From Amedibacillus dolichus DSM 3991 (GTDB taxonomy: Bacteria; Bacillota_I; Bacilli_A; Erysipelotrichales; Erysipelotrichaceae), in assembly GCF_000154285.1 (NCBI RefSeq), contig NZ_DS483477.1:1-64000 (forward strand): a DNA stretch of 64,000 nucleotides, read 5' to 3'. Numbering within the stretch: position 1 is the stretch's first letter; the number at the start of each line of letters is the position of its first letter. A program made the position numbers and the translations under genes. Under the pieces are notes generated by a model, which was not told the origin of the DNA, searched no databases, and worked only from the letters and a program-made list of their open reading frames with translations. Shown in pieces: positions 11,056 through 51,606 of the stretch.

Positions 11056-11139
11056 GCTGTTCCGTATCCTTGCTGGAACCTAATATGTCTGATAAAACAA
11101 AGGTACAGCGCTGGACATTATTCTTAGGAGGTGACGGAA

Positions 11140-12351: not shown

Positions 12352-12377
12352 GTTCCGAACAATTCAGAAAATGAAGT

Positions 12378-12411
12378 AAGAGCGAGACAAGGATGTCTCG
12401 CTCTTAGTTTT
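12378..12411 (+). terminator. Intrinsic terminator between the two integrases
   Basis: AAGAGCGAGACA (12378-12389) and TGTCTCGCTCTT (12394-12405) form a perfect 12-bp stem with a 4-base loop, followed by AGTTTTT. The second integrase therefore needs its own promoter or readthrough. Confidence 0.85.
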
Positions 12412-12496
12412 TCCTTGGCCGTATCTTTGATTCAATTTGAAATCTCTGATAAAAAGGAGGTGTAGATACATCACCACGCGAGAAAGGAAATTAATT

Positions 12497-15054: not shown

Positions 15055-15873
15055 ATGCTCGATAAACTTAATGTCAGTAAATCAGGATATTATGATTACG
15101 TTAACAGAAAACCTTCTAAACAAAAAGTTAGAAAACAGGAACTCAGTAAAAAAATAAAAGCAATTTATGAAGAATCACATGAAATTTATGGAGCACCGAA
15201 AATAACTGTAAAACTGAATCAGTCAGGAATAAAAGTCAGCGAAAAATATGTGGGCAATATTATGCGTGAGATGGGTATTAAAGCCCATTATATCAGACCA
15301 TGCACAATAACCACTAAGGACAGTGATTTTTCATCAAAACTGAAGAATATTCTAAAACGTAATTTCAATCCTGAAAAGCCGAATTCAGCCTGGTGTACAG
15401 ATATAACCTATATTTGGACACAGGAAGAAGGATTTGTGTATCTGACAAGTATAATGGATTTATACTCAAGAAAAATAATAGCCTGGAAACTAACAAAAAC
15501 AATGGAAGTAGAGGAAGTATTAAAATGTCTGGAAGAAGCAAAAAGGAGGAGAAAAACAGATAATCCGGTAGTAATACACAGTGACAGAGGTGTTCAATTC
15601 ACATCAAAAAAATACTATAATCTAACGGTAGGAATGATCGGCAGTTACTCTAAAAAAGGGAATCCATGGGATAATGCATGCATAGAATCATTTCATGCAT
15701 TGATAAAAAGAGAATGGCTAAACAGAAAAAAGATAAATGACTATTCAGAAGCTTATCAGATGGTATTTGAATACATAGAAGGATTTTACAATACAGTAAG
15801 AATACATTCTCATTGTGATTACCAATCTCCAAACAAATATGAAAAAAACTACTACCAGAATAATTTAAACTAA
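15055..15873 (+). CDS. IS3-family transposase OrfB (DDE integrase core)
   Basis: The 272-residue ORF has the rve DDE domain: Asp in WCTDITYIWTQ, Asp in VIHSDRGVQFTS, and Glu in NPWDNACIESFHALIKREW. The reading frame is open upstream to the A AAA AAG site at 14956-14962 (GYWHTGKITKQELYYQ follows the slip), so the functional product is an OrfAB fusion and the ATG at 15055 need not be a real start. It differs from copy 2 at only two residues (Tyr for His and Val for Ile). Confidence 0.92.
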   Translation: MLDKLNVSKSGYYDYVNRKPSKQKVRKQELSKKIKAIYEESHEIYGAPKITVKLNQSGIKVSEKYVGNIMREMGIKAHYIRPCTITTKDSDFSSKLKNILKRNFNPEKPNSAWCTDITYIWTQEEGFVYLTSIMDLYSRKIIAWKLTKTMEVEEVLKCLEEAKRRRKTDNPVVIHSDRGVQFTSKKYYNLTVGMIGSYSKKGNPWDNACIESFHALIKREWLNRKKINDYSEAYQMVFEYIEGFYNTVRIHSHCDYQSPNKYEKNYYQNNLN

Positions 15874-24121: not shown

Positions 24122-24309
24122 ATTAAAAGTTAGAATAGGGTATAGTGTGCCCTTTTTAGCTATGGATAAGGTATTATCTAAAGTTGAAGGAATACAGCGA
24201 AGTGAATCGTTGCTTGGACACGTTCATGATTGATGTATGGTCATAGTATAAATCGTCAAGTCGAACACTGGGCTTGGTAGGCGAAGCCTACTCTTTTGGA
24301 GGCGAAAAG
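24122..24309 (+). promoter_or_regulatory. Leader RNA region ahead of loaP with hairpins
   Basis: It contains CAGCGA/TCGTTG (24195-24212, one G-T) and the perfect hairpin GTAGGC-GAA-GCCTAC (24277-24291) just before the ribosome site TTTGGAGG. LoaP proteins are known to act through RNA hairpins in leaders of the operons they control, so this is the likely recruitment site. An AGGG/CCCT stem followed by TTTT near 24140-24157 could be a weak early terminator. Confidence 0.45.
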
Positions 24310-24822
24310 ATGAATTGGTATGTTGTACAGGTGAGAAGCGGTCATGAAAAACAGATTGCCGAAAAGTGTAGAACTATGATATCTAATGACATTTTAACAG
24401 AATGCTTTATACCGGAGTATATCCATAAACGGAAATTTAGCGGTGTTTGGCACGATGTGAAAGATGTTTTATTCAAAGGGTACGTTTTTATGATTACAGA
24501 TAAGATTGATCTGCTATATTCCGAATTGAAAAAAATACCGGATTTCGTCAAGGTTATCGGCAAAAAGCAAGCTGAGATTTATCCATTAGATGAAGATGAG
24601 ATTGCTTTTATGAAATCTTTCGGTAAAAAAGGGCATATTGTAGATATGTCTATAGGTTTTATTCGTGGAGATAAGATATATATTACGGAAGGACCGTTAC
24701 AGGGCAAAGAAGGATTGATTGTAAAGATTGATCGGCACAAAAGAATTGCTTATCTTCGATTAAGTATGTTTAATAAAGAAACTACGACTAAAGTAGGTTT
24801 GGAAATTATTAGTAAGTGCTAA
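24310..24822 (+). CDS. loaP: LoaP, NusG-family processive antiterminator
   Basis: The 170-residue NusG paralogue has an NGN domain (about 1-105) starting MNWYVVQVRSGHEKQIAEKC with VLFKGYVFM. A C-terminal KOW domain follows (about 125-170), with GPLQGKEGLIVKIDRHKRIA. LoaP binds elongating RNA polymerase and a leader RNA hairpin, then reads through terminators over long operons, typically polysaccharide or antibiotic loci. TTTGGAGG sets the start. It is the first gene of a roughly 23-kb same-strand locus that contains internal terminators, exactly the setting expected. Regulation of loaP itself is probably through the hairpin leader. Confidence 0.88.
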   Translation: MNWYVVQVRSGHEKQIAEKCRTMISNDILTECFIPEYIHKRKFSGVWHDVKDVLFKGYVFMITDKIDLLYSELKKIPDFVKVIGKKQAEIYPLDEDEIAFMKSFGKKGHIVDMSIGFIRGDKIYITEGPLQGKEGLIVKIDRHKRIAYLRLSMFNKETTTKVGLEIISKC

Positions 24823-25375: not shown

Positions 25376-25990
25376 ATGTATAAAAACTTTTTGAAAAGAG
25401 TTCTTGATTTTTTTATGAGCTTATTGGGAATTGTTGTGTTATCACCGATTTTTTTAATATTGGCGATCATTATTAAATTGACTTCTCCCGGTCCGATTTT
25501 ATTTAAACAAAAGCGTGTGGGAAAGAACAAGTCTCATTTTAATATATTGAAATTTCGAACGATGCGAACGGATACACCTAAAGATTGTCCAACACATTTG
25601 TTGTCAAATCCGGATCAATACATCACGAAGATCGGGAAGTTTATGCGGAAAACAAGCTTAGATGAGCTTCCGCAGCTATTCAATATCTTAAAAGGAGATA
25701 TGGCAATTATCGGTCCACGCCCTGCCTTATGGAATCAATATGATTTGATTGAAGAAAGAGATAAATATAAAGCTAACGATATCAAACCGGGATTAACCGG
25801 TTTGGCACAGATTAACGGTAGAGATGAATTGGAAATTGATGTCAAAGCCGCTTTAGATGGCGAATATGTTGAAAAAATGAGCTTTTTATTTGATTGTAAG
25901 TGTTTCTTTGGAACCATTACATCAGTATTAAAATCCGATGGTGTTGTGGAAGGCGGAACCGGAGAAATGAAAAAGGAGGAGAAGCAATGA
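25376..25990 (+). CDS. Initiating phosphoglycosyltransferase (PglC/WcaJ-type sugar transferase)
   Basis: The 204-residue monotopic membrane enzyme transfers the first sugar phosphate to undecaprenyl phosphate. It has one N-terminal hydrophobic segment (about 12-35) with a Pro, then FKQKRVGKNKSHFNILKFRT, LDELPQLFNILKGDMAIIGP and KPGLTGLAQINGRDEL, the catalytic core of the family. It is the small PglC-like form without the large N-terminal region. GTGAGGGG precedes the ATG, and the stop overlaps the next start by 4 bp, so it is coupled to the epimerase-type gene. Confidence 0.9.
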   Translation: MYKNFLKRVLDFFMSLLGIVVLSPIFLILAIIIKLTSPGPILFKQKRVGKNKSHFNILKFRTMRTDTPKDCPTHLLSNPDQYITKIGKFMRKTSLDELPQLFNILKGDMAIIGPRPALWNQYDLIEERDKYKANDIKPGLTGLAQINGRDELEIDVKAALDGEYVEKMSFLFDCKCFFGTITSVLKSDGVVEGGTGEMKKEEKQ

Positions 25991-31401: not shown

Positions 31402-33639
31402 ATGAATGTAATGATTATTAGTTGTTTTGGATACTATGAGCAAAGGGTACGTTTTGTGAAAGAAGCTTTTGAACAAAAAGGCCATCATGTAGAGGTTGTA
31501 TTTTCTGACTTTGATCATATCAATAAGGCTAAAATTGTCGATAAAAGAGCTGGGACAACTTATTTAAAATCACGTCCATATTATAAAAATATATCATTAA
31601 GCCGGATTTTTTCTCATTTTCTTTTCGCAAGATCCGCATATCATTATGCATGTAAAAAACAACCAGATTTAATATATGCGGTGATACCACCAAATACGCT
31701 TGGAAAATATTTAAAGAAATATAAGAAAAAAAATAAAGTTCGTTTAATTTTCGATATTTATGATCTTTGGCCGGAATCTTTTGTAAATCAAAAATTTGCG
31801 GGGATTGCCCGTCCGTTTTTTTTGAAATGGGCAAGTTTCCGGAATCAATCATTAAATGCAGCAGATTTTGTAATTACCGAATGTGATTTATATCGTGAAA
31901 TTTTAGCTGAATTTCTCGATCCGGAGCACACGAAAACAATTTATTTAACAAAAGGCAGTGAATTTGAACAGCCGATGATTTCTAAGCCTATGGAAACTTT
32001 GCATATTTGTTATTTGGGATCAATCAATAATATTATAAGTATTGATATGATCGTACGCTTTTTAAAAACTTTGCAAAATTATCGTCCGATTGTTGTCGAT
32101 ATTATCGGAAAAGGCGAAACGAAAGATGACTTTATTAGAAAGCTAAAAGCACAGGGAATTGAAACAATCTATCATGGAGCCTTATTTGGTGAAGATAAAT
32201 GGAAAATTATGAATCAATGTCATTTTGGCATCAATATGATGATTAACACTGTACGGGTTGGTCTTACAATGAAATCGGTAGATTATTTTGAAGCGGGACT
32301 TCCAATACTGAATAATATTAAAGGCGATACATGGACTTATGTCGATAATTTCAATTTAGGCTTTAATGTAGATGAAAAGAATATTGAAGATGTTGCTCGT
32401 AAACTGGCAAAATTAGATGAACGACAATTTGAAGAAATGCAGAGAAATGTAAGAGATGTTTTTGCCTCTAAATTTTCTTTAACAGCATTTCAAAGAGATT
32501 TTCAGTCGGTATTGGATTATTGCGAAAAGCTGACACATAAAAATATTTTGATTTTATGCAATCATGAAATTGTTTTGTATAATTTTAAAAAAGAGCTTAT
32601 TCAAAAAATCAGTGAAAAAGGCTATCAGGTTCATATTTCTATGCCATTTAATCATAGCTTACCTTTTTTTGAAGATACTTTAAAATGTGATTGTATTGAA
32701 ACAAGAATTGATCGTAGAGGGATCAATCCGTTAAAAGACTTTAAATTGATTTTATTTTACAGAAAATTGATAAAAGAGCTTAAACCGGATTTGGTTTTTA
32801 CACTTACAATTAAGCCTACGATTTATGGTGGCGTTGTATCAAGAATTTACGGTGTGGATTATATAACGAATATTACAGGTTTGGGAAGCGCATTTCAAAA
32901 TGATAATTGGCTCCGTAAATTTGTTGTTCATATGTATCGTGTGGCTTTAAAAAATGTGAAAAAAGCGTTTTTTGAAAATGAAGATAATTGCCGAGTGTTC
33001 TTAGAGGACAAAATAGTGGAAGTGGAGAATAGTTGTATAGTACACGGTGCAGGGGTTAATTTACAGGAATTTAAATTTGTGAATCCTTGTAAAAATCCTA
33101 AATTGGTTTTTGCTTTTATCGGTCGTGTGATGAAGGAAAAAGGGATTGATGAGTTCCTTTATTGTGTTGATAAATTGCGCAATGAAAACGCCGAATTTCG
33201 TGTATATGGTTTTTGTGAAGAAGAATATATTGCACGTTTAAAAGAAATGGAGAAAAACCCTAATTTCCATTATTTTGGTTTTTGCAATGATATTGCTAAT
33301 AAATACAATGAATTTGACGTTATTGTTCTGCCTTCGTATCATGAAGGAATGTCCAATGTTTTATTAGAAGGAGCTTCCAAGGGGAAAATTTTAATTACAT
33401 CTGATATTTTTGGCTGTAAAGAAGCCGTTATAGACGGTAAAAGTGGTTTTTTAGCCACAAAAGCTGATAAAGAAAGTTTATTAGAGGCATGTAGGAAGGC
33501 TTTGGCATTATCGTATGAGGAAAGAGTTGCCTTTGGATTAGAAGCAAGAAAGTTAATGGAAAAGGAGTTTGATCGTAACATCATTAACAAGCAATACATG
33601 GAGGCAATTGATGAGATATTAGGAGAAAAGACACTATGA
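31402..33639 (+). CDS. Fused tandem GT4-family glycosyltransferases
   Basis: The 745-residue protein holds two complete GT-B enzymes. The first (about 1-375) starts MNVMIISCFGYYEQRVRF, with IFDIYDLWPESF and a donor-site region around YFEAGLPILNN. The second (about 379-745) starts KNILILCNHEIVLYNFKKEL, has ITNITGLGSAFQ, FAFIGRVMKEKGIDEF and the E-x7-E motif in YHEGMSNVLLEGA. The junction SVLDYCEKLTHKNILIL shows no linker repeat: what is normally a free start Met is replaced by Lys. Both halves look intact. Successive sugars may be added by one polypeptide. The stop overlaps the next gene (ATGA). Confidence 0.88.
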   Translation: MNVMIISCFGYYEQRVRFVKEAFEQKGHHVEVVFSDFDHINKAKIVDKRAGTTYLKSRPYYKNISLSRIFSHFLFARSAYHYACKKQPDLIYAVIPPNTLGKYLKKYKKKNKVRLIFDIYDLWPESFVNQKFAGIARPFFLKWASFRNQSLNAADFVITECDLYREILAEFLDPEHTKTIYLTKGSEFEQPMISKPMETLHICYLGSINNIISIDMIVRFLKTLQNYRPIVVDIIGKGETKDDFIRKLKAQGIETIYHGALFGEDKWKIMNQCHFGINMMINTVRVGLTMKSVDYFEAGLPILNNIKGDTWTYVDNFNLGFNVDEKNIEDVARKLAKLDERQFEEMQRNVRDVFASKFSLTAFQRDFQSVLDYCEKLTHKNILILCNHEIVLYNFKKELIQKISEKGYQVHISMPFNHSLPFFEDTLKCDCIETRIDRRGINPLKDFKLILFYRKLIKELKPDLVFTLTIKPTIYGGVVSRIYGVDYITNITGLGSAFQNDNWLRKFVVHMYRVALKNVKKAFFENEDNCRVFLEDKIVEVENSCIVHGAGVNLQEFKFVNPCKNPKLVFAFIGRVMKEKGIDEFLYCVDKLRNENAEFRVYGFCEEEYIARLKEMEKNPNFHYFGFCNDIANKYNEFDVIVLPSYHEGMSNVLLEGASKGKILITSDIFGCKEAVIDGKSGFLATKADKESLLEACRKALALSYEERVAFGLEARKLMEKEFDRNIINKQYMEAIDEILGEKTL

Positions 33640-34401: not shown

Positions 34402-35523
34402 ATGATACGTGTCTTGCATGTTGTTAGTATTATGCATCGAGGCGGGATTGAAACGATGCTGATGAATTATTATCGCAGGATTGATCGTAATCAAGTGCAG
34501 TTCGATTTTATAGAACATGGATTTGAAGAAAATGATTATGATGCAGAAATCAGGCGTTTAGGTGGGAAAATTTATAATATACCACCTAAATATGAAGGAG
34601 TAAAAAAAAGCTTGAATGCTATTTCTGAAATTGTTTCAAAAAACAAATACCAAATAGTTCATGTTCATATGGACGCCATGAATTCCTTTGCGTTGTACGC
34701 AGCTAAAAAAGGAGGAGCAAGTATCCGCATTTCACATGCACATAGTACCTCAATGCCCCCATCAAGAGTAAAAGGTCTTATTTATTGGTTATCAATTAAA
34801 GCCTTGCCAAGATATGCAAATCAATATTTTACTTGTAGTCAGGTATCGGCCGATTACCTGTATAGGAATATAGATAAGTCAAAAATCCAGTATATACATA
34901 ATGCGATTGACACTGAAAAATTTAATTATCAAGAAGATATAAGAAATCAAATAAGAGAAAAGCATGATTTAAAAGACAACCTTGTTTTAGGACATGTGGG
35001 TAATTTTCAGTATCCTAAAAATCATATGTTTTTACTTGAAATCATGAAGGAGTACCATCAAATTAATCCAAATGCTAAGTTATTGTTGTGTGGAGATGGT
35101 GAGCTGCGAGAAAGTATTGAGAAGCGAATAAAGGAATATCATTTAGAGGAGAATGTGATACTATTAGGCGTGTGTGATAATGTAAGCGAATATATGCAAG
35201 CATTTGATATTTTATTACACCCTTCGTTTTATGAGGGCTTTCCGGTAGTAACAGTTGAAGCGCAATGCTCGGGTTTACCGCTTCTATTATCCGATACACT
35301 CACGAAAGAAGTAGCTTTAACCGATCACGTAGAGTTTTTAGCCATTGATGGAGATCAGGCTGTTAAACAATGGACAGATGCTATTGAAAGAATTCGATGT
35401 CATGCTTTTGAAAGGAAAAATCAATCTGAAATAATCGCTAAAAAGGGATATGATATTCGAATAGAAGCAGAAAAACTACAGCATCTTTATGAACAGCTTG
35501 CAAAGGAGGAACTAAATGAATAA
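34402..35523 (+). CDS. GT4-family glycosyltransferase
   Basis: The 373-residue GT-B enzyme opens MIRVLHVVSIMHRGGIETML, typical of capsular GT4 proteins. It contains HAHSTSMPPSR, GHVGNFQYPKNHMFLLEI and the donor-binding E-x7-E in FYEGFPVVTVEAQ near residue 280. GGAGG precedes the ATG. The 3' end overlaps the next gene by 8 bp. Role: addition of one sugar to the lipid-linked repeat unit on the cytoplasmic face; specificity unknown. Confidence 0.9.
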   Translation: MIRVLHVVSIMHRGGIETMLMNYYRRIDRNQVQFDFIEHGFEENDYDAEIRRLGGKIYNIPPKYEGVKKSLNAISEIVSKNKYQIVHVHMDAMNSFALYAAKKGGASIRISHAHSTSMPPSRVKGLIYWLSIKALPRYANQYFTCSQVSADYLYRNIDKSKIQYIHNAIDTEKFNYQEDIRNQIREKHDLKDNLVLGHVGNFQYPKNHMFLLEIMKEYHQINPNAKLLLCGDGELRESIEKRIKEYHLEENVILLGVCDNVSEYMQAFDILLHPSFYEGFPVVTVEAQCSGLPLLLSDTLTKEVALTDHVEFLAIDGDQAVKQWTDAIERIRCHAFERKNQSEIIAKKGYDIRIEAEKLQHLYEQLAKEELNE

Positions 35524-37972
35524 ATTATATTCTAAAGTAACTAGCATAGAGTTATATAAAATTTTATTTATGGTATGCTCTTTGCTGTATATACTTCCTA
35601 AAGGAGATGTTGTCGCAAGTATTTTATTAAAAGGAATGCTTGTTTGGGGTTTTTTATTGTTAGTAATTCGCTTTTATCAGAAAAGAATTATAATTGACAA
35701 TAAGTTTTTCATATTTTTTATAATCTTTACACTGCTGAGTATCATATTTAATTTTCAAGATGGATTTATACGAAATATTAAAGATTTTTTATATCTTATT
35801 TTAGAAGTGGTTTTGTTAACACAGGTTGATAAAGGGGATAGTAAAAATATACTTATTTTTAATAGAATTTTATTAGGCTTTATGACCTTTGGTTACACTG
35901 TATCTCTTTTGATTTTCTTTTTTCGAATACCGCAGGTGCCTGGATTTGAAAAATTCATAATGTCGTATACAGAAGGAAGATTATGGGGTTGGTGTGGAAA
36001 TCCAAATACACTTGCAACTATGAGCTTGTTCGGCTTGTTCGCTGCTTTTTTTAATATTTATTTGCGAAAAGAAAACTTATCAGTTTTAAATAAATTAGGA
36101 TATGGTTTTATCATTATCGAGGCATTAGCTTGCTTGACTTTATCACAATCACGTTCAGGTTTTGTTGGTTTCGCTGTATTAGTATTTGGTGCGGTATTTT
36201 TTATTGGCATTTATAAAAATAAGCACATCATTGGTTCTATTCTATTAGCACTCATAATTGGTATTGCTTCTGTATTTATGTTGGAAGTATATGGTTGGGG
36301 GCTGAGACAAATGCCTTCTGAAAAACTTGCTATTAGTGTAAATTCAAACGGATATTTTTCAATTCAAGAAGATGGTTCGGATGGAGGAGAAGTTAATCCT
36401 TCAAGTTCCGACATGGGACTTGAGAACAGAGAAATCGGATCAGATTATTCCAATGGGCGATTTACTATTTGGAAAGGCGGTTTATCCGTCGCAAAAGAAA
36501 ACATTTTGTTCGGAGTTGGGCAAAATGCATTGAATGATGAAGTAAATCAAAAATTACCTAAAGATTATGTTAAACAATCACCGAAAATAGCTGCTAACAT
36601 GCATAATATTTATTTGCAGGTATTGGCAACCTCCGGTATTTTTGCATTTATCTTTTTTGTTTTACAGTTTGTAAATAGCTTTTGGAAAAGAAGAAAAGAA
36701 ATATTTAATGATGCACTAAAATGTATGTTTTTTGTTTTGATTGGGTGTATGTTGATAATTAACTTATTTGATTCCAATATAATCGGATTTATGAATTTAT
36801 TTATTGCCGGTATGTTTTGGATTTATTTCGGATATTTCACTAGTGAATGTGCCGATAATAAAAAAGTTTTATTTCTCATCAATTCATTAAAAATAGGCGG
36901 TGCGGAAACAGTACTAAGAGATATTGTAAATCATTTTGATTTTCAAAATTATGATATTACTGTAAGAACCTTATTTTCAGAAGGTGAATTGTTAGATGAA
37001 TTTTCGCCTTTCATTCATTATTCAACAGTTCTTAAAAAACCGAATCCTCTAAAAAAAGCGATATTGTGGAGATGTGTAAAGTATTTGCCGAGTGTTATCA
37101 TACAATATTTTATTCACGGACAGTATGATTATGCAATAGCATTTTTAGAAGGTATGCCAACGAAAATTGTAGGCTCTCTTAAAAATACGGATTGTAAAAA
37201 ATATTGTTGGATTCATACTGATCTGGTTCATAACTTTGAGAGTGAAACGAACTATCATAATCGAGAACAAGCATTGAAATGTTATCAAGGAATGGAGAAT
37301 ATTATTTGTGTGTCCAATGATTGCAAGGATAAGTTTTTACAAATTTATCCCGAATTAAAGGATAGGACTATTGTTGTTTATAATTGCTTGGATATAGAAC
37401 GTATTCGTATGCTATCCGATGAAGTGGTAGAATCACCTTTTTTAGATAAGAAATCCTCAATACTATTGTGTAGCGTTGGAAGGTTAGTTAAAGAAAAAGG
37501 CTTTCTTCGTATGCTGCATGTTATTGAACGTTTGAAAAAAGAAAATGTCAATTTACAGTGGTTATTGATTGGAGATGGAAATCAAAAAGATATTTTAAAG
37601 GAATATGTGAAAAAACACGGGCTTGAAGAAAATGTAGCATTTTTAGGTTATCAAAAAAATCCATTTGCTTATATGAAGCTTGCTGATTATTATGTGTGTT
37701 CTTCCTTTGTTGAAGGCTTTTCATTAACTGTTGTAGAAGCACTTATCGTAGGGGTAGCGGTGATTTCGACTCAATGTACTGGACCAAGTGAGATTCTTAG
37801 CGATAATTGTGGAATCCTTTGTGAAAACAGTGAAGATGGTTTATATGACACTTTGAAAGTAATAAATAAAAAGAAAAAAGAGTTACCTAGAGAAAAAATC
37901 GAAAAGCGAATTGCTCAATTTCGCGTAGAAACTGTTTTAGATAGTATCTATAAATTGATCGGAGGTCAATAA
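35516..37972 (+). CDS. Fusion of a Wzy/O-antigen ligase-type polymerase with a GT4 glycosyltransferase
   Basis: In this 818-residue protein residues 1-445 form a polytopic membrane domain with about 11 helices and the Wzy_C-type outer loop (RLWGWCGNPNTLA, LTLSQSRSGFVGF, NGRFTIWKGGLSV, NMHNIYLQVLATSG). After TSECADNKKVLFLINSLKI a complete GT-B enzyme follows (about 455-818), with GGAETVLRDIVNHF, LCSVGRLVKEKGFLRML and E-x7-E in FVEGFSLTVVEAL. The polymerase active side is extracytoplasmic and the GT side cytoplasmic, so the fusion would tie assembly and polymerization physically together. I know of no standard family with this order. Confidence 0.85.
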   Translation: MNKLYSKVTSIELYKILFMVCSLLYILPKGDVVASILLKGMLVWGFLLLVIRFYQKRIIIDNKFFIFFIIFTLLSIIFNFQDGFIRNIKDFLYLILEVVLLTQVDKGDSKNILIFNRILLGFMTFGYTVSLLIFFFRIPQVPGFEKFIMSYTEGRLWGWCGNPNTLATMSLFGLFAAFFNIYLRKENLSVLNKLGYGFIIIEALACLTLSQSRSGFVGFAVLVFGAVFFIGIYKNKHIIGSILLALIIGIASVFMLEVYGWGLRQMPSEKLAISVNSNGYFSIQEDGSDGGEVNPSSSDMGLENREIGSDYSNGRFTIWKGGLSVAKENILFGVGQNALNDEVNQKLPKDYVKQSPKIAANMHNIYLQVLATSGIFAFIFFVLQFVNSFWKRRKEIFNDALKCMFFVLIGCMLIINLFDSNIIGFMNLFIAGMFWIYFGYFTSECADNKKVLFLINSLKIGGAETVLRDIVNHFDFQNYDITVRTLFSEGELLDEFSPFIHYSTVLKKPNPLKKAILWRCVKYLPSVIIQYFIHGQYDYAIAFLEGMPTKIVGSLKNTDCKKYCWIHTDLVHNFESETNYHNREQALKCYQGMENIICVSNDCKDKFLQIYPELKDRTIVVYNCLDIERIRMLSDEVVESPFLDKKSSILLCSVGRLVKEKGFLRMLHVIERLKKENVNLQWLLIGDGNQKDILKEYVKKHGLEENVAFLGYQKNPFAYMKLADYYVCSSFVEGFSLTVVEALIVGVAVISTQCTGPSEILSDNCGILCENSEDGLYDTLKVINKKKKELPREKIEKRIAQFRVETVLDSIYKLIGGQ

Positions 37973-37973
37973 G

Positions 37974-38849
37974 ATGTGTGAAATTACTATTTTTACACCT
38001 GTTTATAACCGCGCTTATTGTTTGAAAAAGCTTTATGATTCATTAAAGGAACAAACGTGGAAGGATTTTGAATGGGTTATTGTTAATGATGGTTCAACTG
38101 ATCATTCCGATGAACTAATAAAAACATTTATTGAGGAAAAAAGGATAAAAATACAATATCGGTACGTTAAAAATCATGGAAAGCATAATGCTATTAATAT
38201 AGGTGTCGAGATGGCACAGGGAAGGCTGTTTTATATCGTAGATTCAGATGATAGTTTGCCAAGAAATGCATTAGATAGAATCATGTATTGGGAGAGTACA
38301 ATTAAAACAGAAAAACAATTCGCGGGTGTTGCAGGTTGTCGAGGTAATAAAGAAGGAAAAATTATCGGGGAAACATTCGAAGGAGAGTATATAGATGCTA
38401 CGGTACTAGAACGTGATGCAAAGCATATCATAGGCGATAAGGCGGAAGTATTTTATACTGATATACTGCAAAAATACCCTTTTCCTGTTTTTGAAAACGA
38501 AAATTTTATTTCAGAAAGTGCGGTTTGGCTAATGCTTGGAAAAGAGGGATACAAGCTTCGATGGTTTAATGAAATAACCTATTACGGAGAATATTTGGAA
38601 GATGGTTTAACGGCAAAAGGCAATCTGCTGTTTCAAAAAAATCCAAAAGGTTTTTTATATGTTACTAAACTTGAACTTTCTTGTTATCCTAATGATAAAA
38701 TAAAATGTATGAAGCTTTGTGTTGCGTATTATACTACATTGAAAAAAGTGGGTATAGATTTAAAGAGGTGTGCAGCCGATTTAGGAGTATCAAAATTTTA
38801 TTTAGCCTTTTCGTATATGCTTTTTAGAATCAAAAATATAAAAGGATAG
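37974..38849 (+). CDS. GT2-family glycosyltransferase
   Basis: The 291-residue GT-A enzyme starts MCEITIFTPVYNRAYCLKKL, with WVIVNDGSTDHSDELI and the DxD-type YIVDSDDSLP. The middle part (GKHNAINIGVEMAQG) and the wide C-terminal half resemble capsule glycosyltransferases of the EpsS/WcaA group. The start lies 1 bp after the preceding stop. Sugar specificity is not readable. Confidence 0.88.
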   Translation: MCEITIFTPVYNRAYCLKKLYDSLKEQTWKDFEWVIVNDGSTDHSDELIKTFIEEKRIKIQYRYVKNHGKHNAINIGVEMAQGRLFYIVDSDDSLPRNALDRIMYWESTIKTEKQFAGVAGCRGNKEGKIIGETFEGEYIDATVLERDAKHIIGDKAEVFYTDILQKYPFPVFENENFISESAVWLMLGKEGYKLRWFNEITYYGEYLEDGLTAKGNLLFQKNPKGFLYVTKLELSCYPNDKIKCMKLCVAYYTTLKKVGIDLKRCAADLGVSKFYLAFSYMLFRIKNIKG

Positions 38850-41111: not shown

Positions 41112-42047
41112 ATGGAAAATAAAATCTCTGTTGTGATAACTTCGTATAATAGATATGAATATTTGACTCAAGCCATTCATTCAGTGGTAATGCAGGATTA
41201 TTCGAATAAAGAGATTATTGTTGTGGACGATTGTTCTGACGATTTAAATTATGATGAGTTTAAAATGCGAGATGATATAATTTATATACGTAATGAAGCC
41301 AATAGCGGTGCATCTATGAGCAGAAAAAACGGATATAGAGTGGCAACTGGTGAATACATCATTTTTATGGACGATGATGACTATTATACAAATTCTGATT
41401 TTTTAAAAAAAGCTATGAACGGCTTTTTAAATAATACAGATATTAGCTTTGTCAGTGGTAATGTTAATGTATATGACCAACAGTCTGAACAGGTGTTGCC
41501 TGCCAATAAACTTCCGTTTTATGGGAATGTGGATCGCGAAGAGTATTTAAAAGGATTTCAAACTAAATACATTAAACCTTATTCTACCTTTTCCACTGTA
41601 TTTTCCATGAAGGTTATTGATAAAATTATTGAGATGCCAATGTTTAATGATTCTTCCATTTATTTAGGAGCTCTATTATATGGAAAACCGTATTTTATTG
41701 AAGATATTATCGGAAATTACAGAGTACATAAAAGCAATATGACCAAGGCACTAAATGTGGAATTTATTTTGCAAAATTTGAAACAAAAAAAAGATATAAA
41801 AGATGCGATGTTATCACAAGTGTCTTTTGATTTAGAAAAATGGTTTTATCAACAAGTAAAATTGACTGTAGATTATTATTTACGAGAAACTAGGCCACAA
41901 TTAAAATCAGCTGTTGCGGTTTTGAAGTGGGGATTACAGAATATGAAAAAAAATCGATTACATTTTTTCTTAGATTGGTTGTATGATTTAGTTTATAGCT
42001 ATCGTGCTACGAGAAAATGTAGAGAGGAAAATAAGTATGAAGCGTAG
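41112..42047 (+). CDS. GT2-family glycosyltransferase
   Basis: The 311-residue enzyme has KISVVITSYNRYEYLTQAIH, IIVVDDCSDD, NSGASMSRKNGYRVATG and FMDDDDYYTN. The catalytic-region EDIIGNYRVHKSNMTKAL is present. The C-terminal region is basic and amphipathic. Its end overlaps the flippase gene by 11 bp. Confidence 0.88.
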   Translation: MENKISVVITSYNRYEYLTQAIHSVVMQDYSNKEIIVVDDCSDDLNYDEFKMRDDIIYIRNEANSGASMSRKNGYRVATGEYIIFMDDDDYYTNSDFLKKAMNGFLNNTDISFVSGNVNVYDQQSEQVLPANKLPFYGNVDREEYLKGFQTKYIKPYSTFSTVFSMKVIDKIIEMPMFNDSSIYLGALLYGKPYFIEDIIGNYRVHKSNMTKALNVEFILQNLKQKKDIKDAMLSQVSFDLEKWFYQQVKLTVDYYLRETRPQLKSAVAVLKWGLQNMKKNRLHFFLDWLYDLVYSYRATRKCREENKYEA

Positions 42048-43536
42048 GCAAGTTTTTTCTAATATATTATCCGGGTTTTTAGGTCAAGTCATTACATTAT
42101 TATTAGGTATTATCCTACCTAGACTTTTTATTATGACGTTCGGGTCAGAAATAAATGGGCTTCTTTCTTCTGTGAATCAAGTTTATGTATATATTGGTTT
42201 ATTAGAAGCAGGGGTAGGTACTGCAACACTTCAGGCATTGTATAAACCGATTGCTTCTCAAGAAAAAGATAGCATCAATTCCATATTATCGGCAACTAAG
42301 ATGTATTATTATAAAACGGGCTTTTTTTATGGTTTAGCAGTGCTTTTGTTTGCAATTTTATATCCTATATTTGTTTCTAATGAAATCGGATTTACAACAA
42401 TATTTTTGGTAATATTGTTTAGCGGTTTAGGAAATGTTATTATTTATTTTTTCCATGGAAAATATAAAATTTTATTAAATGCAGACGGGAGAGGATATAT
42501 AGTTACTAATATTGCGACGATATCTACAATTATTACCAGTATTTTAAAAATTATTTTGATTTTTAAGGGGTTTGATGTAGTCGCTATTCAGTTCTCGTTT
42601 TTCATAGTAACATTATTACAAGTTGTATTTTTTCAAGTATATATAAATAAGAGATATCAATGGTTGGATTTAAATGTTGAACCTAATTTCCAAGCCATAT
42701 CTCAAAAAAATTCAGTTTTAATACATCAATTATCATATTTAATATTTTCAAATACCGATATTATTATTTTAACTTTATTTTGTGATTTAAGAATAGTAAG
42801 TATCTATACTATATATAATCTTGTTTTTTCATCAATTTCTAATATTCTTGCTTCAATCAATGGAAGCATTGTATATGTATTAGGTCAAGAATATGCGAAA
42901 AATTTGAAAAATTTTATGAAATATGTTAATTGTTATGAATTATATTATACAGTACTGAATTTTATATGTTATACAATGGCGTTAATATTTGCTATACCAT
43001 TTCTCAAACTATATACTAATGGTTTCAACGATCCGCAGTATGTAGATGTAATTTTAGTAATATTGTTTGTTGCGTTAAATGTTTTAGTTGCATCACGCAC
43101 AGCAATGTCGAATATCATAAATATTACCGGACATTTTAAAGAAACGCAGAATAGAGCTATTTTTGAATCTGTTATTAATTTGACAGTATCTTTAATCGGA
43201 GTACATTTTTTTGGGATTTACGGGGTCTTGCTTGGAACAATCATTGCCTTATTGTATCGTACAAATGATATAATTCTTTATAGTAACCATAAAATATTAA
43301 ATAGATCTGCTTTTCATACATATAAAATTATAATCGTAAATGTTGCTTTAATGATCTTAATATATGTTGGTTTCCAAAATATGGTTCTTCCATTTCTTTT
43401 GTTGGATACATATACTGAATTATTTGCTTCAGCTGCGTTATGTGCTATTATTATAGGTTTAATTTATATCGTCATTAATTCTTTATTAGATAGGGATTCT
43501 TTTAGATTTGTTTTGAGCTTAGTTGTAAAAAAATAG
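42037..43536 (+). CDS. Wzx-type lipid-linked oligosaccharide flippase, first
   Basis: The 499-residue polytopic protein of the MOP/polysaccharide transport group has about 14 hydrophobic segments. It begins VFSNILSGFLGQVITLLLGI, continues GLLSSVNQVYVYIGLLEAGV and later has ILASINGSIVYVLGQEYAKN. It would move undecaprenyl-linked repeat units across the membrane. AGAGAGGA before 42037 sets the start, overlapping the previous gene. Remarkably a second, different flippase gene follows 49 bp later. Confidence 0.88.
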   Translation: MKRRQVFSNILSGFLGQVITLLLGIILPRLFIMTFGSEINGLLSSVNQVYVYIGLLEAGVGTATLQALYKPIASQEKDSINSILSATKMYYYKTGFFYGLAVLLFAILYPIFVSNEIGFTTIFLVILFSGLGNVIIYFFHGKYKILLNADGRGYIVTNIATISTIITSILKIILIFKGFDVVAIQFSFFIVTLLQVVFFQVYINKRYQWLDLNVEPNFQAISQKNSVLIHQLSYLIFSNTDIIILTLFCDLRIVSIYTIYNLVFSSISNILASINGSIVYVLGQEYAKNLKNFMKYVNCYELYYTVLNFICYTMALIFAIPFLKLYTNGFNDPQYVDVILVILFVALNVLVASRTAMSNIINITGHFKETQNRAIFESVINLTVSLIGVHFFGIYGVLLGTIIALLYRTNDIILYSNHKILNRSAFHTYKIIIVNVALMILIYVGFQNMVLPFLLLDTYTELFASAALCAIIIGLIYIVINSLLDRDSFRFVLSLVVKK

Positions 43537-43585: not shown

Positions 43586-44995
43586 ATGAGTATTTCTAAA
43601 TCTTTGTTTCAATCATCGGTAATTTATTTTATCGGGCAAATTTTATCTAAAATCATTTCCTTTCTCTTACTTCCGCTTTATACCAACTATATCAATACAT
43701 CGGATTTTGGCTATTATGATTTTACTGTTTCTATATTAGGTGTTATTGTACCGGTTATATTCTTGGAAATATGGACAGGAACCCTTAGATTTGGTGTGGA
43801 AAAACAAGATGAGTGTGGAAAGTCTAAGGTAATCAATAACACAATGATACTTGGAATGGGATCACTCGTTCTTTATAGCATCATATATGTTGTTTTTATG
43901 TCATTGTTTCCATTTGAATTACCACTATGGATCTATTTATATAGCTTTTTTTGGGTCATTCAATTATTTTTGCTGAGTGTTGCAAGAGTTTATGGGAAAA
44001 ATGTATTGTATGCAAGCAGTGGAGTAATTTCAGTATTCTTTAATGCAGCGGTAACGATTCTTGTCGTAATGCTAACAAATGGTTCCATTATTTCCTTATA
44101 TTTAGGAATGATTGTGTCTATGATCGTACAAATAATAATTTTGAATCATAGTTTTCATATTTTCTCAAAATTTCGTTTCTCCGATTTTGATAAGGATTTA
44201 TGTAAAGAACTTATACGATTTTCATTACCTTTAAGCTTCAACTCAATTATGTTTTGGATGTTGGAGGGGTTTAATAAATATGTTATAAAAATATATTTGG
44301 GACTTTCCAGTGTAGGAATCTATGCGGTTGCCAATCGTTTATCCTATATTTTAACATTGATAATCAGCGTATTCAGCTTATCTTGGCAAGAAACAATCTT
44401 TAAAATCAGTGATAAAGAAACTAAAGAAGCTGTCTATAACCAAGGCTTCCACATGCTGTTTAAAGTTATGGGGGCAGGATTGGTCGTTTTATTACCGGCA
44501 ATCGCCATTATGTTTCCATATATAATAGGGAATGATTATGCACAAGCTAGAAATCTGATACCTTGGCTATTATTATCGGTTTATGCCAATGCAATGGTAA
44601 ATTTATTATCTTCTTGTTTCGCAGCAGAGAAAAATACCAAAGATGCAATGATTGCAAGAACGATATCCTGTATTATCAATGTAGTCGTTCTTTTCTCCTT
44701 TATTGACTGTATCGGTCTTTATGCGTCTCCGATTGCTTTGTTTTTAGCAAATTCTATCGGTATGATCGTTTTGCTAATGTTGATTAAAAAGCATGTGCGT
44801 ATTACGTTATTACCTTCACAAGTCATGGTGTTTATAACGATGTTTATTATTTCATATTTTGTGTATACAAATTGCAGCACTTTTGTAAATCTAGGTTGGT
44901 TATTATTTTCAGCAATTATTTATTGTATTTATTTAAAGGATTTTATTATTTCTGTTTTGAAGCTTGCTAAAGATATGGTATTTCGAAAAAGGTGA
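43586..44995 (+). CDS. Wzx-type flippase, second
   Basis: The 469-residue protein with about 12-14 membrane segments begins SLFQSSVIYFIGQILSKIIS and has FLLLPLYTNYINTSDFGYYD, the classic start of Wzx/RfbX proteins, and SLSWQETIFKIS further on. It is only distantly similar to the flippase upstream, so it is not a tandem duplication. Two flippases may serve two repeat units, or one may be a leftover of a merged locus. Confidence 0.9.
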   Translation: MSISKSLFQSSVIYFIGQILSKIISFLLLPLYTNYINTSDFGYYDFTVSILGVIVPVIFLEIWTGTLRFGVEKQDECGKSKVINNTMILGMGSLVLYSIIYVVFMSLFPFELPLWIYLYSFFWVIQLFLLSVARVYGKNVLYASSGVISVFFNAAVTILVVMLTNGSIISLYLGMIVSMIVQIIILNHSFHIFSKFRFSDFDKDLCKELIRFSLPLSFNSIMFWMLEGFNKYVIKIYLGLSSVGIYAVANRLSYILTLIISVFSLSWQETIFKISDKETKEAVYNQGFHMLFKVMGAGLVVLLPAIAIMFPYIIGNDYAQARNLIPWLLLSVYANAMVNLLSSCFAAEKNTKDAMIARTISCIINVVVLFSFIDCIGLYASPIALFLANSIGMIVLLMLIKKHVRITLLPSQVMVFITMFIISYFVYTNCSTFVNLGWLLFSAIIYCIYLKDFIISVLKLAKDMVFRKR

Positions 44996-45005
44996 GGTGA
45001 TAAGT

Positions 45006-46394
45006 ATGAAAAAAGTCAAATTTATTTGTGAGCAATATGTTGATATGCTTGGAATTCTTATTGCAGTATTAACTGTTTTTAGTAGCTTTTTCATTACCGG
45101 TCTATTTGGAATGGGAAAGTATGGAACACTGATTAACTATACATTATGTGGTCTGTTTTTCGTTTATATAGGTATGCTGTTGATTATAAGAAAAAAAAAT
45201 TCGTGTTTTTATAAATCAGTTGAATTCTATATTTGCTTGTTTCTTTTCTTTTATCTTTTAACAATTGGGTTAAATACAGGAAAAATACAGAATTTAAAGA
45301 TCTTTATTTTAACTGCCATTCAATGGGGGATCCTGTTCCATTATATGAAAGCAAAGAGAATTACTATGGAAAAAATTTTATATTGTTTAAACATAATAAT
45401 TTTTATAGTAACTTTCATTGGTATTGTATATTGTTTTTTATTCAATCACCCGGTTTCAAATTTTGCGGAAAGACATTGCGGATTCTATGAGAATCCTAAT
45501 ACGGGGGCTATTATTTGTGCAATTAGTATCGCTATTTCCATGATGTTTCTAAGTTTTAAAAACATTTGGAATCGTGTTTTTTTGATAATCAACATTGTTT
45601 TCCAACTAATGATGATACGTTTGTGTTTATCAAGAGCCGGAGTTATTATGCTAATAGCCTTTTTGATTTTATATGCGCTGATAGTAGCTTGTTATCACAA
45701 GAAAAAAGCAATAACAGCTATACGTAATTTGATAGTAGTTGCAGTTGTGTTTTTGTTTATTTACAATGTAGTATCCCCTAAACTTTATCACTTAAGAGAT
45801 TTGATTTTGTATCAGCCAAGTGCGGTATTAAATGTCTTGCAAAAAGAAGAAACCGCTGGAAGCAACGTAAGCAAAAGAGATGAAAAGAAGGCAACTGACA
45901 GTGATAATCATCGAATGAACTTATTGATTTCGGGAAGTAAAGCATTTCTTCACAATCCGATTATCGGAGTAGGGCAAGCGAATTTACCGAAGGCAGTAAA
46001 TGAGCAAATGTTGTTACAGGATTTAGAAACCGGAGGAGTGCATAATGCCTATTTGCAGATGTTGATTTCTAACGGTACGATAGGATTTGTTTCTTATGCT
46101 GCTATTTATGTAGTATTGTTGATTTTGTTTATCAAAAAACGTAAAACTATTACATTAGCAATGATTCAAGATAAAAATTATAACTATTTCTGTGGTTTTA
46201 CAGCATTAACATTAAGTTTATTTGTATATGGATTATTAGAATCGGTAATCGTTTTAAGTAGTTCGTTCCCGGCAGTTATCATGGCAATTTCCGCTGGTGG
46301 CGTAGCTTCTTTTATAGAAGGAAATGAAAGTGTAGGAAAGGAATTGTCAACAAATGGAAAAGAAACTGTTGAGTATCATCATACCTGTATATAA
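45006..46394 (+). CDS. Wzy/O-antigen ligase-type polymerase
   Basis: The 462-residue protein with about 11 membrane helices has NPNTGAIICAISIAISM, LCLSRAGVIMLIAF, the outer-loop NHRMNLLISGSKAFLHNPII and GVHNAYLQMLISNGTIGFVS, matching the Wzy_C fold. It is the second polymerase of the locus besides the fusion at 35516. The ATG at 45006 follows GAGGTGATAAG; the frame is open from 44964. The 3' end overlaps the next gene by 41 bp, a long overlap for the locus. Confidence 0.85.
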   Translation: MKKVKFICEQYVDMLGILIAVLTVFSSFFITGLFGMGKYGTLINYTLCGLFFVYIGMLLIIRKKNSCFYKSVEFYICLFLFFYLLTIGLNTGKIQNLKIFILTAIQWGILFHYMKAKRITMEKILYCLNIIIFIVTFIGIVYCFLFNHPVSNFAERHCGFYENPNTGAIICAISIAISMMFLSFKNIWNRVFLIINIVFQLMMIRLCLSRAGVIMLIAFLILYALIVACYHKKKAITAIRNLIVVAVVFLFIYNVVSPKLYHLRDLILYQPSAVLNVLQKEETAGSNVSKRDEKKATDSDNHRMNLLISGSKAFLHNPIIGVGQANLPKAVNEQMLLQDLETGGVHNAYLQMLISNGTIGFVSYAAIYVVLLILFIKKRKTITLAMIQDKNYNYFCGFTALTLSLFVYGLLESVIVLSSSFPAVIMAISAGGVASFIEGNESVGKELSTNGKETVEYHHTCI

Positions 46395-47376
46395 TAATCA
46401 AGATCAGATAAAAAATTTAATTGATGAAATTTTGAGCATGGAGTTACGAGAACAGTTGGAAATATTGTGTGTAGATGATGGATCCGAAGATCAAAGTCTG
46501 CAAGTATTACAAAGTATCAATGATAAAAACTGTTTGGTTTTGACACAGCCGCATGCAGGTGTAAGCTATGCGAGAAATTTAGCTTTAGACAAAGCAACCG
46601 GAGAATATATTACTTTTTTTGATGCTGATGATAATATTGATACAAATAAATTCATGACTGTTTTAAATAAAATAAAGATAGAAAAGCCGGATTTATCAAT
46701 CTTCGGAATATATGATCGATTTATTTACAGCAGTGAGAAAATTCAATTACATCGGAATTATGTTGAAAATAAAAGGTACAGTGCAGATGAGTTTTTTCAA
46801 AATTTCGGGAATTTATTAAATAAGCATATCATGTACTCACCATGCAATAAGATATATAAGCGCAGTATTATCGAACGGTATCAGATACGTTTTAATGTAG
46901 AATGTGCAATCGGTGAGGATATGCTATTTAATCTTGATTATTTACAACATGTTTGTAACGTCAGAATGTTTGAGGAATTCGTTTACTTGTATAATCACGA
47001 TATGATGAAAATATCAAGTAGTTCAAGAAAATATCATGAAAACGAGTTTTCAATTTTAATGAAAATTATAGAGAAAATAAAGCTTCTTTTAGAAAATAAA
47101 AAAGTATATTTTAAAAATGAAAAAGAGATTCATGAATTTTTAGTTCGAAAAATTTCCTATTCTATAAATAATTTATTTTTCAAAGGATCGCATTTAACAA
47201 AGGAAGAAAGACTATATTTTATAGATAATCTTTACAACAATGCGTTAGTTAAAGAAGCAATAGATGATCCAAGAGTAAAAATGATTGAATTTGATCAGAA
47301 AGTGTTACATTTTCTTCATAAAAGAAGATGGAAAAGATGTATCTTGTATCTATATCAATTGAAAAATAAAAGATAA
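46354..47376 (+). CDS. GT2-family glycosyltransferase
   Basis: The 340-residue enzyme starts MEKKLLSIIIPVYNNQDQIK, with ILCVDDGSEDQSLQVL, GVSYARNLALDKATGEY and FFDADDNIDT. AIGEDMLFNLDYL gives the ED pair. It is the last gene of the polysaccharide locus, followed by a terminator-like hairpin and a transposon relic. GGAAAGGAATTG before the ATG is the likely ribosome site, inside the polymerase gene. Confidence 0.88.
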   Translation: MEKKLLSIIIPVYNNQDQIKNLIDEILSMELREQLEILCVDDGSEDQSLQVLQSINDKNCLVLTQPHAGVSYARNLALDKATGEYITFFDADDNIDTNKFMTVLNKIKIEKPDLSIFGIYDRFIYSSEKIQLHRNYVENKRYSADEFFQNFGNLLNKHIMYSPCNKIYKRSIIERYQIRFNVECAIGEDMLFNLDYLQHVCNVRMFEEFVYLYNHDMMKISSSSRKYHENEFSILMKIIEKIKLLLENKKVYFKNEKEIHEFLVRKISYSINNLFFKGSHLTKEERLYFIDNLYNNALVKEAIDDPRVKMIEFDQKVLHFLHKRRWKRCILYLYQLKNKR

Positions 47377-49134: not shown

Positions 49135-49152
49135 AAATATGAGGTGTTGCAC

Positions 49153-51606
49153 GTGCTGCAAGTGGAAGGCTTAACATTATACGATCGAAATCATTGCATT
49201 CTGTTATCCAATGCTTGTTTTCGTCTGCCCAATTATGGCTTTGTAAGTATTTATGGTGATCACGAAGAACTCCATCATCTGTTGGCACAAAGCCTTGCAG
49301 GTGTTTATTCTCCGAATGCTTCACGTTTTATATACAATGATCAGGAAATGACCCTATTTGATGAAAAAGAGCGCAGCATATATCGCTCTTGTTTTGCGTC
49401 ATTTTTATTTCATGACTTTCAGATCATACCGGATCAAACGGTTTACGATAATATAACAATGTTTGAAAACTTTCCTCGCTATGTCATTCAAAAGGAACTT
49501 GCTTTTTTTCAAATGGAAGATAAAGTTACTACACTAGCCGAGGATTTAACTCCGTTTGAACAATGGAAAATGGTGCTTGTCAGATGTATGCTGCGTTGTC
49601 CGATGATGTTGGTTGTGGATAGCGAAAGTACGCCTTTAGCGAAAGAAGAGCTCATGCAGCTGTATAGTTTATTAGATATGCTGAAATCGCGGGTATTGGT
49701 TGTCGTTATCGGAGATAAGCAAAGCATTGCCTATGCCAATCGGATAATCGAGATTGCAGATGGATATATTTTAAGTGATACGCACACCAATAGCCATAGC
49801 TTTCCTCAAGTTAATCAGATCCAACAACCTTATACTTTAAAACAGGCGCAGATTGAGGCCTTTGATGAAAAGCTTTATCACTTTATTCATTGGAAGCTGA
49901 GGCTAGCTACGGTATTTCTCGTGCTTTCCTTTATTGCATTATCCGTTGGCTTATTTTCATTGAACCTCGATGTTACGGATATTCAAATGCGTCTTATGGA
50001 AAACAAACAATCCAGCATTCTTGCTGTGGAAAAGCTTGCTAATCTTAATGGTGAATATGTAGATAATTATTATGATTATTTAAATGAAAACGATGTCGTA
50101 GCCTTACAAAAAGCATTGGGAAAGAAGCTGATTCTCGGATACTATCCAACGGATTTAAAGGCTGCTCGCTACTCGGTTTATGGCAGCTCACAGTTGTATG
50201 TTACCGATATTTTAGATGAATATACAATGATTGAAGCAGATAGTGCACAGGAGCTTGGCTTTGCGAAAATGTACGGCAGCTATCCGCAGGCTTATGATGA
50301 AATTGCCCTCCCATCAACCAGTGCTTATCGTATATTGAAGGAAGTTTTAAACGAACCCTTTTATAATACGCAGGAGCAATGTGAACGCATGCTGGGAATG
50401 AAGGTGCTGTGGTTTGGACAGCCTTTAACAATTACCGCAATCTTTCCTGCTTATGAAGCAGACAATGCCAATATGGAATTGCAGATGCACAGCTATGGCT
50501 CCTCTTTGAATCAAGCAAAGTTGATGTCGGGAAGCTTTTTTGTGAAAAGAGGTTTTGCAAAGAAACAAGAGGTATTAACGATGTCTGCTTATCAGAAAAC
50601 CGGAAAACGTTTGATTTACGGAGATCGAATTGTCGCGGAATTTGAAGGCTTACACCAAGGAAAAGTAGGAATGCGTTATTTTGATGGGGAATATCACTAT
50701 ACAAGTAGTGAGTTAGAAGAAGATGAGATTTTAATTGATTATGATGCCGCACTTTCCATGGGGTTTCGAGCCAGTTATTTAAGCTGTGTAAAGGATCAGG
50801 CAATTGATGTGGATCAGGCGATTCGTTTGTTTGAGGAATTTGCTGAAAGCTGGGTGGGAAAGGAGATAACATTACAAACCTATCGTGTACCATTAGCTCC
50901 ACAGGCAACACAAACGATGAATAGAGTTGTACGTATCAAAGGAATTATGCTGCCACGAAGCTTCAGCTATGAGGATTATGAGCGCTATTATAAAAAAGAA
51001 GGCATTGGTGCAATCTATGCATCAAAAGAGATGCTGGCAGCGGGAATCACGCAAAACCATTATATCAAGGTAGCCTTTTTCCAAAGTCATGAGAAAAAGG
51101 AATTGAAGCATGCACTAGATTATTTGAATTCTCATGAAGGTTATGATGCGTTTTTGACCAATGATCGAATTTTGAAATTCTTTGTTGTTGATTTACATGA
51201 AGTAGCAATCTTTTTATTGATTTTAGGAGGACTTGCCTTTCTAGCCTTTTTATACTTGTATATCTTTTTGTTAAAGTCTGCTAGCAGCTATATTCATAAG
51301 GATTGTACGATACATTATTTATTAGGAGAAACAAAAAGTGCCCTGCGTTCACTTGTCATAAAATACTTTCAAATGGTATTATGGATACGTTCTTTATTTA
51401 GTTGGCTATGTGCCGCTTTGACACTTATGCTATTTGTTTTTACCATTTATTTTGCATTATATGCTTCCATAACGATCATGTGGTCATTGACCATTCCGTG
51501 TATCCTGCTTTTTGTAGGGGTGTTGTTGGTTCGTATCGTGATGCATATTGTATTTCAAAGGACAACGGTTTTAGATGAAATGTTAATCGATGAGGAGAGG
51601 CTATGA
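49153..51606 (+). CDS. ABC-type ATPase/FtsX-like permease fusion with degenerate ATPase motifs
   Basis: The 817-residue protein keeps the plan of MacB-type transporters: an ATPase-like domain (1-225), one membrane helix (about 260-285), a large outer domain (about 290-680) and three C-terminal helices. Yet every ATPase motif is altered. Walker A is IYGDHEELHHLL without GK(S/T), the Q-loop is FLFHDFQIIPD, the signature is LTPFEQWKMVLVR, Walker B is LVVDSESTP and the switch is VVIGDK. The frame is intact over its full length, so it is conserved as a non-hydrolysing protein rather than a pseudogene. GAGGTG at 49141-49146 selects GTG 49153. It overlaps the rRNA methyltransferase gene by 4 bp. Confidence 0.82.
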   Translation: MLQVEGLTLYDRNHCILLSNACFRLPNYGFVSIYGDHEELHHLLAQSLAGVYSPNASRFIYNDQEMTLFDEKERSIYRSCFASFLFHDFQIIPDQTVYDNITMFENFPRYVIQKELAFFQMEDKVTTLAEDLTPFEQWKMVLVRCMLRCPMMLVVDSESTPLAKEELMQLYSLLDMLKSRVLVVVIGDKQSIAYANRIIEIADGYILSDTHTNSHSFPQVNQIQQPYTLKQAQIEAFDEKLYHFIHWKLRLATVFLVLSFIALSVGLFSLNLDVTDIQMRLMENKQSSILAVEKLANLNGEYVDNYYDYLNENDVVALQKALGKKLILGYYPTDLKAARYSVYGSSQLYVTDILDEYTMIEADSAQELGFAKMYGSYPQAYDEIALPSTSAYRILKEVLNEPFYNTQEQCERMLGMKVLWFGQPLTITAIFPAYEADNANMELQMHSYGSSLNQAKLMSGSFFVKRGFAKKQEVLTMSAYQKTGKRLIYGDRIVAEFEGLHQGKVGMRYFDGEYHYTSSELEEDEILIDYDAALSMGFRASYLSCVKDQAIDVDQAIRLFEEFAESWVGKEITLQTYRVPLAPQATQTMNRVVRIKGIMLPRSFSYEDYERYYKKEGIGAIYASKEMLAAGITQNHYIKVAFFQSHEKKELKHALDYLNSHEGYDAFLTNDRILKFFVVDLHEVAIFLLILGGLAFLAFLYLYIFLLKSASSYIHKDCTIHYLLGETKSALRSLVIKYFQMVLWIRSLFSWLCAALTLMLFVFTIYFALYASITIMWSLTIPCILLFVGVLLVRIVMHIVFQRTTVLDEMLIDEERL

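Follow-up and report, generated by a model that had tools for sequence, protein, structure and literature searches.

A probable Wzy-type polymerase joined to a C-terminal GT4 glycosyltransferase in a polysaccharide cluster of Amedibacillus dolichus

In WadA of Brucella, an N-terminal cytosolic GT25 domain attaches the final sugar of the core, and the C-terminal part, with 12 helices, is an O-antigen ligase (PMC9938171). Mutants support both activities and the protein works in cells; its authors described it as the first bifunctional enzyme to span the membrane and have sites on either side (PMC9938171). A CAZy survey found the GT25-GT121 join in five genera, Brucella and Mesorhizobium among them, and suggested coupled action (PMC10920833). 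Both kinds of domain are also familiar on their own. WaaL (7tpg) and other Wzy_C proteins are stand-alone membrane proteins with no cytosolic glycosyltransferase (GT), and essential Arg and His residues have been listed for WaaL of E. coli (PMC10269572). HepE (4xsr) and BshA are separate GT-B proteins, untethered to a membrane polymerase.

Here we analyse a protein of 818 residues encoded in a stretch of 64,000 nucleotides from A. dolichus DSM 3991 (the window; all coordinates are counted from its first letter unless a locus is named). As far as the fused protein is known from its sequence and model, it shares with WadA a cytosolic nucleotide-sugar GT and a 12-helix Wzy_C-type enzyme acting outside, in one chain. 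In WadA the GT is N-terminal, belongs to GT25 and is joined to a ligase that acts on an LPS core, whereas in the window protein the GT is C-terminal, belongs to GT4 and is encoded in a cluster with LytR-CpsA-Psr proteins. The GT matches GT4-type Pfam families only, and there is no N-terminal GT25 domain. Judged by sequence, the window protein shares its general plan with WadA without being a WadA-type member.

The initial annotation had held that these two activities are normally found in separate proteins. This is so for most Wzy proteins, but the join of a GT to an O-antigen ligase is known and has been tested in WadA (PMC9938171). The idea is therefore not wholly new; new here are the opposite domain order, the GT4 type, the other bacterial group and, probably, a polymerase. 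A search of the open-access literature, in which few subscription journals are covered, returned no paper on any Wzy-GT4 fusion.

The fused reading frame and its two halves

The fused ORF follows an upstream GT gene with which it overlaps by 8 bases, and the features are as follows.

34402..35523, + strand, upstream GT4 gene (Pfam)
35504..35509, + strand, AGGAGG Shine-Dalgarno sequence of the fused ORF, within the 3′ end of the upstream GT4 gene
35516..37972, + strand, fused ORF of 818 aa, Wzy_C-type membrane domain plus GT4 glycosyltransferase (ORF reading and Pfam)
35516..36844, + strand, membrane half, residues 1-443, 12 helices, Wzy_C/WaaL type, predicted N-in/C-in (AF2 model, K/R counts, profile match to 7tpg)
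36122..36661, + strand, Pfam Wzy_C (PF04932), residues 203-382 (E 1.1e-20)
36290..36604, + strand, large extracytoplasmic loop, residues 259-363, with conserved Arg315 and His363 (conserved columns, topology)
36845..36859, + strand, junction, residues 444-448, ECADN (AF2 model)
36860..37969, + strand, GT4 (GT-B) glycosyltransferase half, residues 449-818 (Pfam, structure comparison)
37712..37738, + strand, E-x7-E motif of the GT, E733-E741 (sequence and model)

The frame runs from the ATG at 35516 to the stop at 37972 without internal stops, and both other frames contain many stops at the junction. As first proposed, this one frame of 818 residues carries two domains: Pfam recognises Wzy_C and both domains of the GT-B fold. 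Between residues 433 and 492 of the fused ORF no in-frame ATG, GTG or TTG was found, and none of the start candidates near the junction in any frame is preceded by a Shine-Dalgarno sequence. The GT half thus has no visible route to separate synthesis.

The AlphaFold model of the fused protein has a mean pLDDT of 79, with a low-confidence region (pLDDT below 50) in the core of the outer loop, residues 258-311. It shows 12 membrane helices, the last ending at about residue 443, and not the 11 that had been counted from the sequence. Lys and Arg number 2-3 per cytosolic loop and 0-1 in four of the six outer loops, and the GT domain is predicted by the model to lie on the cytosolic side, with the C-terminus inside. 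The model alignment comprises the window protein and the locus proteins; a Scatolibacter row joined across frames was left out. The fold of one fusion from another genus (L066) reached a pLDDT of 55 and was left out of use.

For the membrane half, the Wzy_C match scores 74 bits (cut-off 31.7). The 105-residue loop between residues 259 and 363 is placed outside, and R213 lies in the part of the domain that precedes it. In an alignment of 24 Wzy_C proteins R213, R315, H363, N364 and G374 are conserved columns, the first four of them invariant or nearly so. A profile of this half matches the solved WaaL structure 7tpg (E 1.6e-18), with R213, R315 and H363 aligned to its Arg and His residues, and about equally the oligosaccharyltransferase 9rmk (E 9e-18). 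The half thus shows what marks the Wzy_C/WaaL superfamily, namely the PF04932 domain, about 12 helices with a large outer loop, and Arg and His at positions essential in WaaL; the conserved Arg and His, in or beside the loop, are shared with WaaL and other Wzy_C proteins alike. Among the matches listed in the structural comparison all were to the GT half, and the identity of the Wzy half rests on its sequence-profile match to WaaL.

The GT half matches Glyco_transf_4 (residues 460-629) and Glycos_transf_1 (residues 646-774, E 7e-29), both above the curated cut-offs, and has GGAE at residue 461. On superposition with HepE and BshA it gave Z scores of 34-36, the comparison with HepE reaching Z 36 with an rmsd of 2.9 over 341 aligned residues. 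With these two proteins it shares the GT-B fold along the entire C-terminal half as well as E-x7-E, and with both Rossmann domains present it has the makings of a GT4 enzyme. That the GT-B half is complete, as had been noted from the letters, is borne out by the motif, the N- and C-terminal Pfam domains and the match to HepE. So is the claim that a Rossmann fold starts directly after the last helix: strand 1 of the GT spans residues 449-455, and in the model only about five residues separate it from the helix.

An unfused relative and other fusions

Besides a lone GT, a pattern scan of genome contigs turned up a single relative that matches the whole protein; it comes from Scatolibacter rhodanostii (L034) and is unfused. 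The Scatolibacter Wzy protein has 491 residues and 31% identity to the Wzy half of the window protein. Its GT4 partner (36% identity) is read in a different frame, from a GTG that lies behind AAGGAGG and about 30 bases ahead of the Wzy stop. The next gene encodes a GT2 with 45% identity to the product of the gene that starts one base past the stop of the fused ORF. The following features of the window bear on this comparison.

37974..38849, + strand, GT2 gene, whose 45% orthologue follows the unfused Wzy-GT4 pair in Scatolibacter
44964..46394, + strand, second, unfused Wzy_C protein of the cluster (Pfam)
46354..47376, + strand, GT2 gene, its first 41 bases overlapping the second Wzy gene in a different frame, an unfused counterpart (Pfam)

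By sequence comparison, a Wzy-GT4-GT2 module is conserved between the window and Scatolibacter: the orthologous Wzy-GT4 pair and the adjoining GT2 gene are shared, and the two differ in that Wzy and GT4 are two overlapping genes in Scatolibacter. As these genes overlap in different frames, a net change of one base in the overlap, or an equivalent change, would fuse the pair. From this one unfused relative we infer that the direction was fusion rather than a split. The overlap of the second Wzy gene with its GT2 gene, read in the same way, is the arrangement that would have preceded the fusion.

The same fusion was sought with the full protein in 272 genomes of the same family, with the Wzy half in 294 genomes of the same order, with a Wzy profile in 392 genomes of the same phylum, and in viral contigs, and was found in none of these sets. 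The genus of the window is represented by no other genome among those searched. Within the searched genomes there was thus no second one with exactly this fusion, and the sole close relative found is unfused.

Other joins of the same kind were found. Six loci of the same family encode Wzy_C followed by a GT-B domain (L065, L066, L067, L070, L071 and L072, the last cut by a contig end). A search of the genus to which these belong added the partly assembled G027, so that 7 of its 70 genomes carry such Wzy_C-GT4 fusions, which we call the g6 clade. The g6-clade fusions share 32-93% identity in their Wzy halves and 55-96% in their GT halves; that the join is kept at Wzy identities down to 32% indicates that it is old and retained. 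In the wider class, Pfam identified three more Wzy_C-GT4 fusions in three genomes: L132 (787 aa), L133 (782 aa) and L134 (811 aa). All have the domain order of the window protein and a similarly short linker, with the GT beginning soon after the last helix. They differ from it in that both halves are distant from its own, without a close relation to any of them, and they are apparently the products of separate fusion events.

In the GT tree, the window GT clusters with unfused GTs at weak support (82/88), Scatolibacter being nearest by path. The fused label has to change four times on the tree, and the starred branches force only one of these changes. On this basis Wzy_C-GT4 fusion seems to have come about independently on several occasions in the class, and a single origin stays compatible with the branch support. 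Of the Wzy_C proteins listed for the family and the class, the majority are unfused, so that fusion is not required for function.

The initial annotation had looked to full-length homologues for the same two-domain order. This order is present in the other fusions, and the nearest relative of the module, that of Scatolibacter, has a stop/start pair at the junction; in this one genome the pattern is thus the one that the initial annotation had named as speaking against the fusion. Elsewhere, independent fusions share the junction, which shows, at the level of sequence comparison, that this stop/start reflects the origin of the fusion and not an error.

Partners other than a GT were found at the C-terminus of Wzy_C in three further loci.

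L068, 1417-3573, + strand, Wzy_C-deacetylase (NodB type) fusion (Pfam)
L069, 1671-3860, + strand, Wzy_C-deacetylase (NodB type) fusion (Pfam)
L135, 1444-3555, - strand, Wzy_C-TupA-like ATP-grasp fusion (Pfam)

The two polysaccharide deacetylase fusions come from two genomes of the same family, and all three loci were rejected as GT fusions by their C-terminal domain. With GT4, deacetylase and TupA as partners, a cytosolic glycan enzyme at the Wzy C-terminus looks like a recurring theme. Under the usual topology the deacetylase of L068 and L069 would be cytosolic, which is odd for NodB enzymes. Eight more candidates (L073-L077, L127, L128 and L130) were rejected because their long frames come from extra membrane segments or other segments. 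Two loci were left out of the fusion count, as Glyco_trans_1_2 matched one with an E of 0.004 and the other had no match.

L129, 1704-3992, + strand, Wzy_C plus a C-terminal domain of about 320 residues, barely recognised by Pfam
L131, 1615-3900, + strand, Wzy_C plus a C-terminal domain of about 320 residues, barely recognised by Pfam

Proposed function and alternatives

The cluster around the fused ORF encodes an initiating sugar-phosphate transferase, several GTs, and two each of flippase-like, Wzy_C and LytR-CpsA-Psr proteins, a content that fits a Gram-positive wall polysaccharide.

25376..25990, + strand, initiating sugar-phosphate transferase (Bac_transf, PF02397), same cluster (Pfam)

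Members of the LytR-CpsA-Psr family link polymers of this kind to the peptidoglycan of Gram-positive bacteria. From the cluster content we favour a polymerase, which the N-terminal half probably is, over a ligase or an O-oligosaccharyltransferase (O-OTase).

We propose, with a probability of roughly 0.65, that the fused ORF encodes a single protein that has a glycosyltransferase site on each face of the membrane, holds the GT at the polymerase and arose from overlapping genes; the activity, the sugar and the coupling are what we infer. The C-terminal GT4 would add one sugar to the lipid-linked precursor of the repeat unit on the cytosolic face. A flippase would then turn the repeat unit over, and the N-terminal 12-helix Wzy-type domain, using lipid-diphosphate-linked repeat units at the outer face, would join the units outside. 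The fusion would have originated from a wzy gene and a GT gene that overlapped its end, once the two came into the same frame. Its likely use would be to keep a repeat-unit GT at the polymerase in a fixed ratio. The GT may also make the sugar end that Wzy uses as acceptor, much as the GT of WadA makes the acceptor for its own ligase; by this analogy, coupling of the last cytoplasmic sugar addition to polymerization, as suggested earlier, is plausible. If the halves are coupled, such fusions would show which GT works beside Wzy, something that polysaccharide clusters do not normally reveal, and the physical link between repeat-unit assembly and polymerization would become directly testable.

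The strongest competitor, clearly less probable than the reading above, takes the fusion as real but as a by-product of overlapping genes, in which the GT is tethered and its dosage equalised with no hand-over of substrate. Wzy genes can indeed overlap the next GT gene, by 30 bases in Scatolibacter and by 41 bases at the second Wzy of the cluster, and the fused partners are varied (different kinds of GT4, deacetylase, TupA ATP-grasp). The g6 clade argues against it, as there the frame has been kept open despite the divergence of the Wzy halves, with GT halves still 55-96% identical, which points to a useful join. A broader and tentative idea, which we hold to be possible rather than likely, is that C-terminal fusions of Wzy with GT4, deacetylase or TupA ATP-grasp recur in the class owing to a physical link across the membrane between repeat-unit assembly and polymerization, the partner finishing the sugar end used by Wzy. 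Were this link real, the interaction surface, along with the sequence of assembly steps in polysaccharide clusters, could be read from the fusions.

Rather unlikely, in our view, is that the N-terminal half is a ligase or O-OTase that transfers to a final acceptor, which would make the protein a Gram-positive functional counterpart of WadA. PF04932 spans ligases, polymerases and O-OTases, the profile matches WaaL and 9rmk to much the same degree, and the second Wzy_C protein of the cluster could serve as the polymerase. Against this, the cluster encodes two LytR-CpsA-Psr proteins and an LPS core is not expected; it also encodes two flippase-like proteins (that at 43586 by Pfam, that at 42004 by helix content), so that two polymerases are possible.

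A sequencing or assembly error, such as a one-base indel in the A6 run after the junction (around 36860-36866) that joins two overlapping genes, would agree with the separate genes of Scatolibacter, the nearest relative, and with a GTG at 36849 that a one-base change in this run would bring into the GT frame, but it is very improbable, since that GTG, unlike the start of the fused ORF with its AGGAGG, has no Shine-Dalgarno sequence, the adjacent genes of the cluster are intact, independent fusions occur at the same place in other genomes, and the assembly, in 19 contigs, reaches 98% completeness. The absence of start signals for the GT, the intact neighbours and the independent fusions together make an artefact unlikely, in line with the initial annotation, which had argued from the intact motifs of both halves.

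Surroundings of the cluster

The polysaccharide cluster opens with a NusG-like antiterminator with NusG and KOW domains (24274-24822, + strand). Ahead of the fused ORF lies a further fusion of the cluster: a frame of 745 residues (31402-33639, + strand) contains two GT4s head to tail, here too with no clear start for the second half. A frame of 820 residues at 49144-51606 (+ strand) has no Pfam match at an E of 1e-5.

The two flippase-like membrane proteins adjoin each other at 42004-43536 and 43586-44995 (+ strand); the second has a Pfam match and the first was assigned by helix content. The paired flippases and the two Wzy_C genes suggest a mosaic of two polysaccharide clusters. The cluster is flanked by two tandem phage-type integrases, an IS3-type integrase core and a DDE transposase (11131-13708, + strand; 15055-15873, + strand; 57523-58626, - strand).
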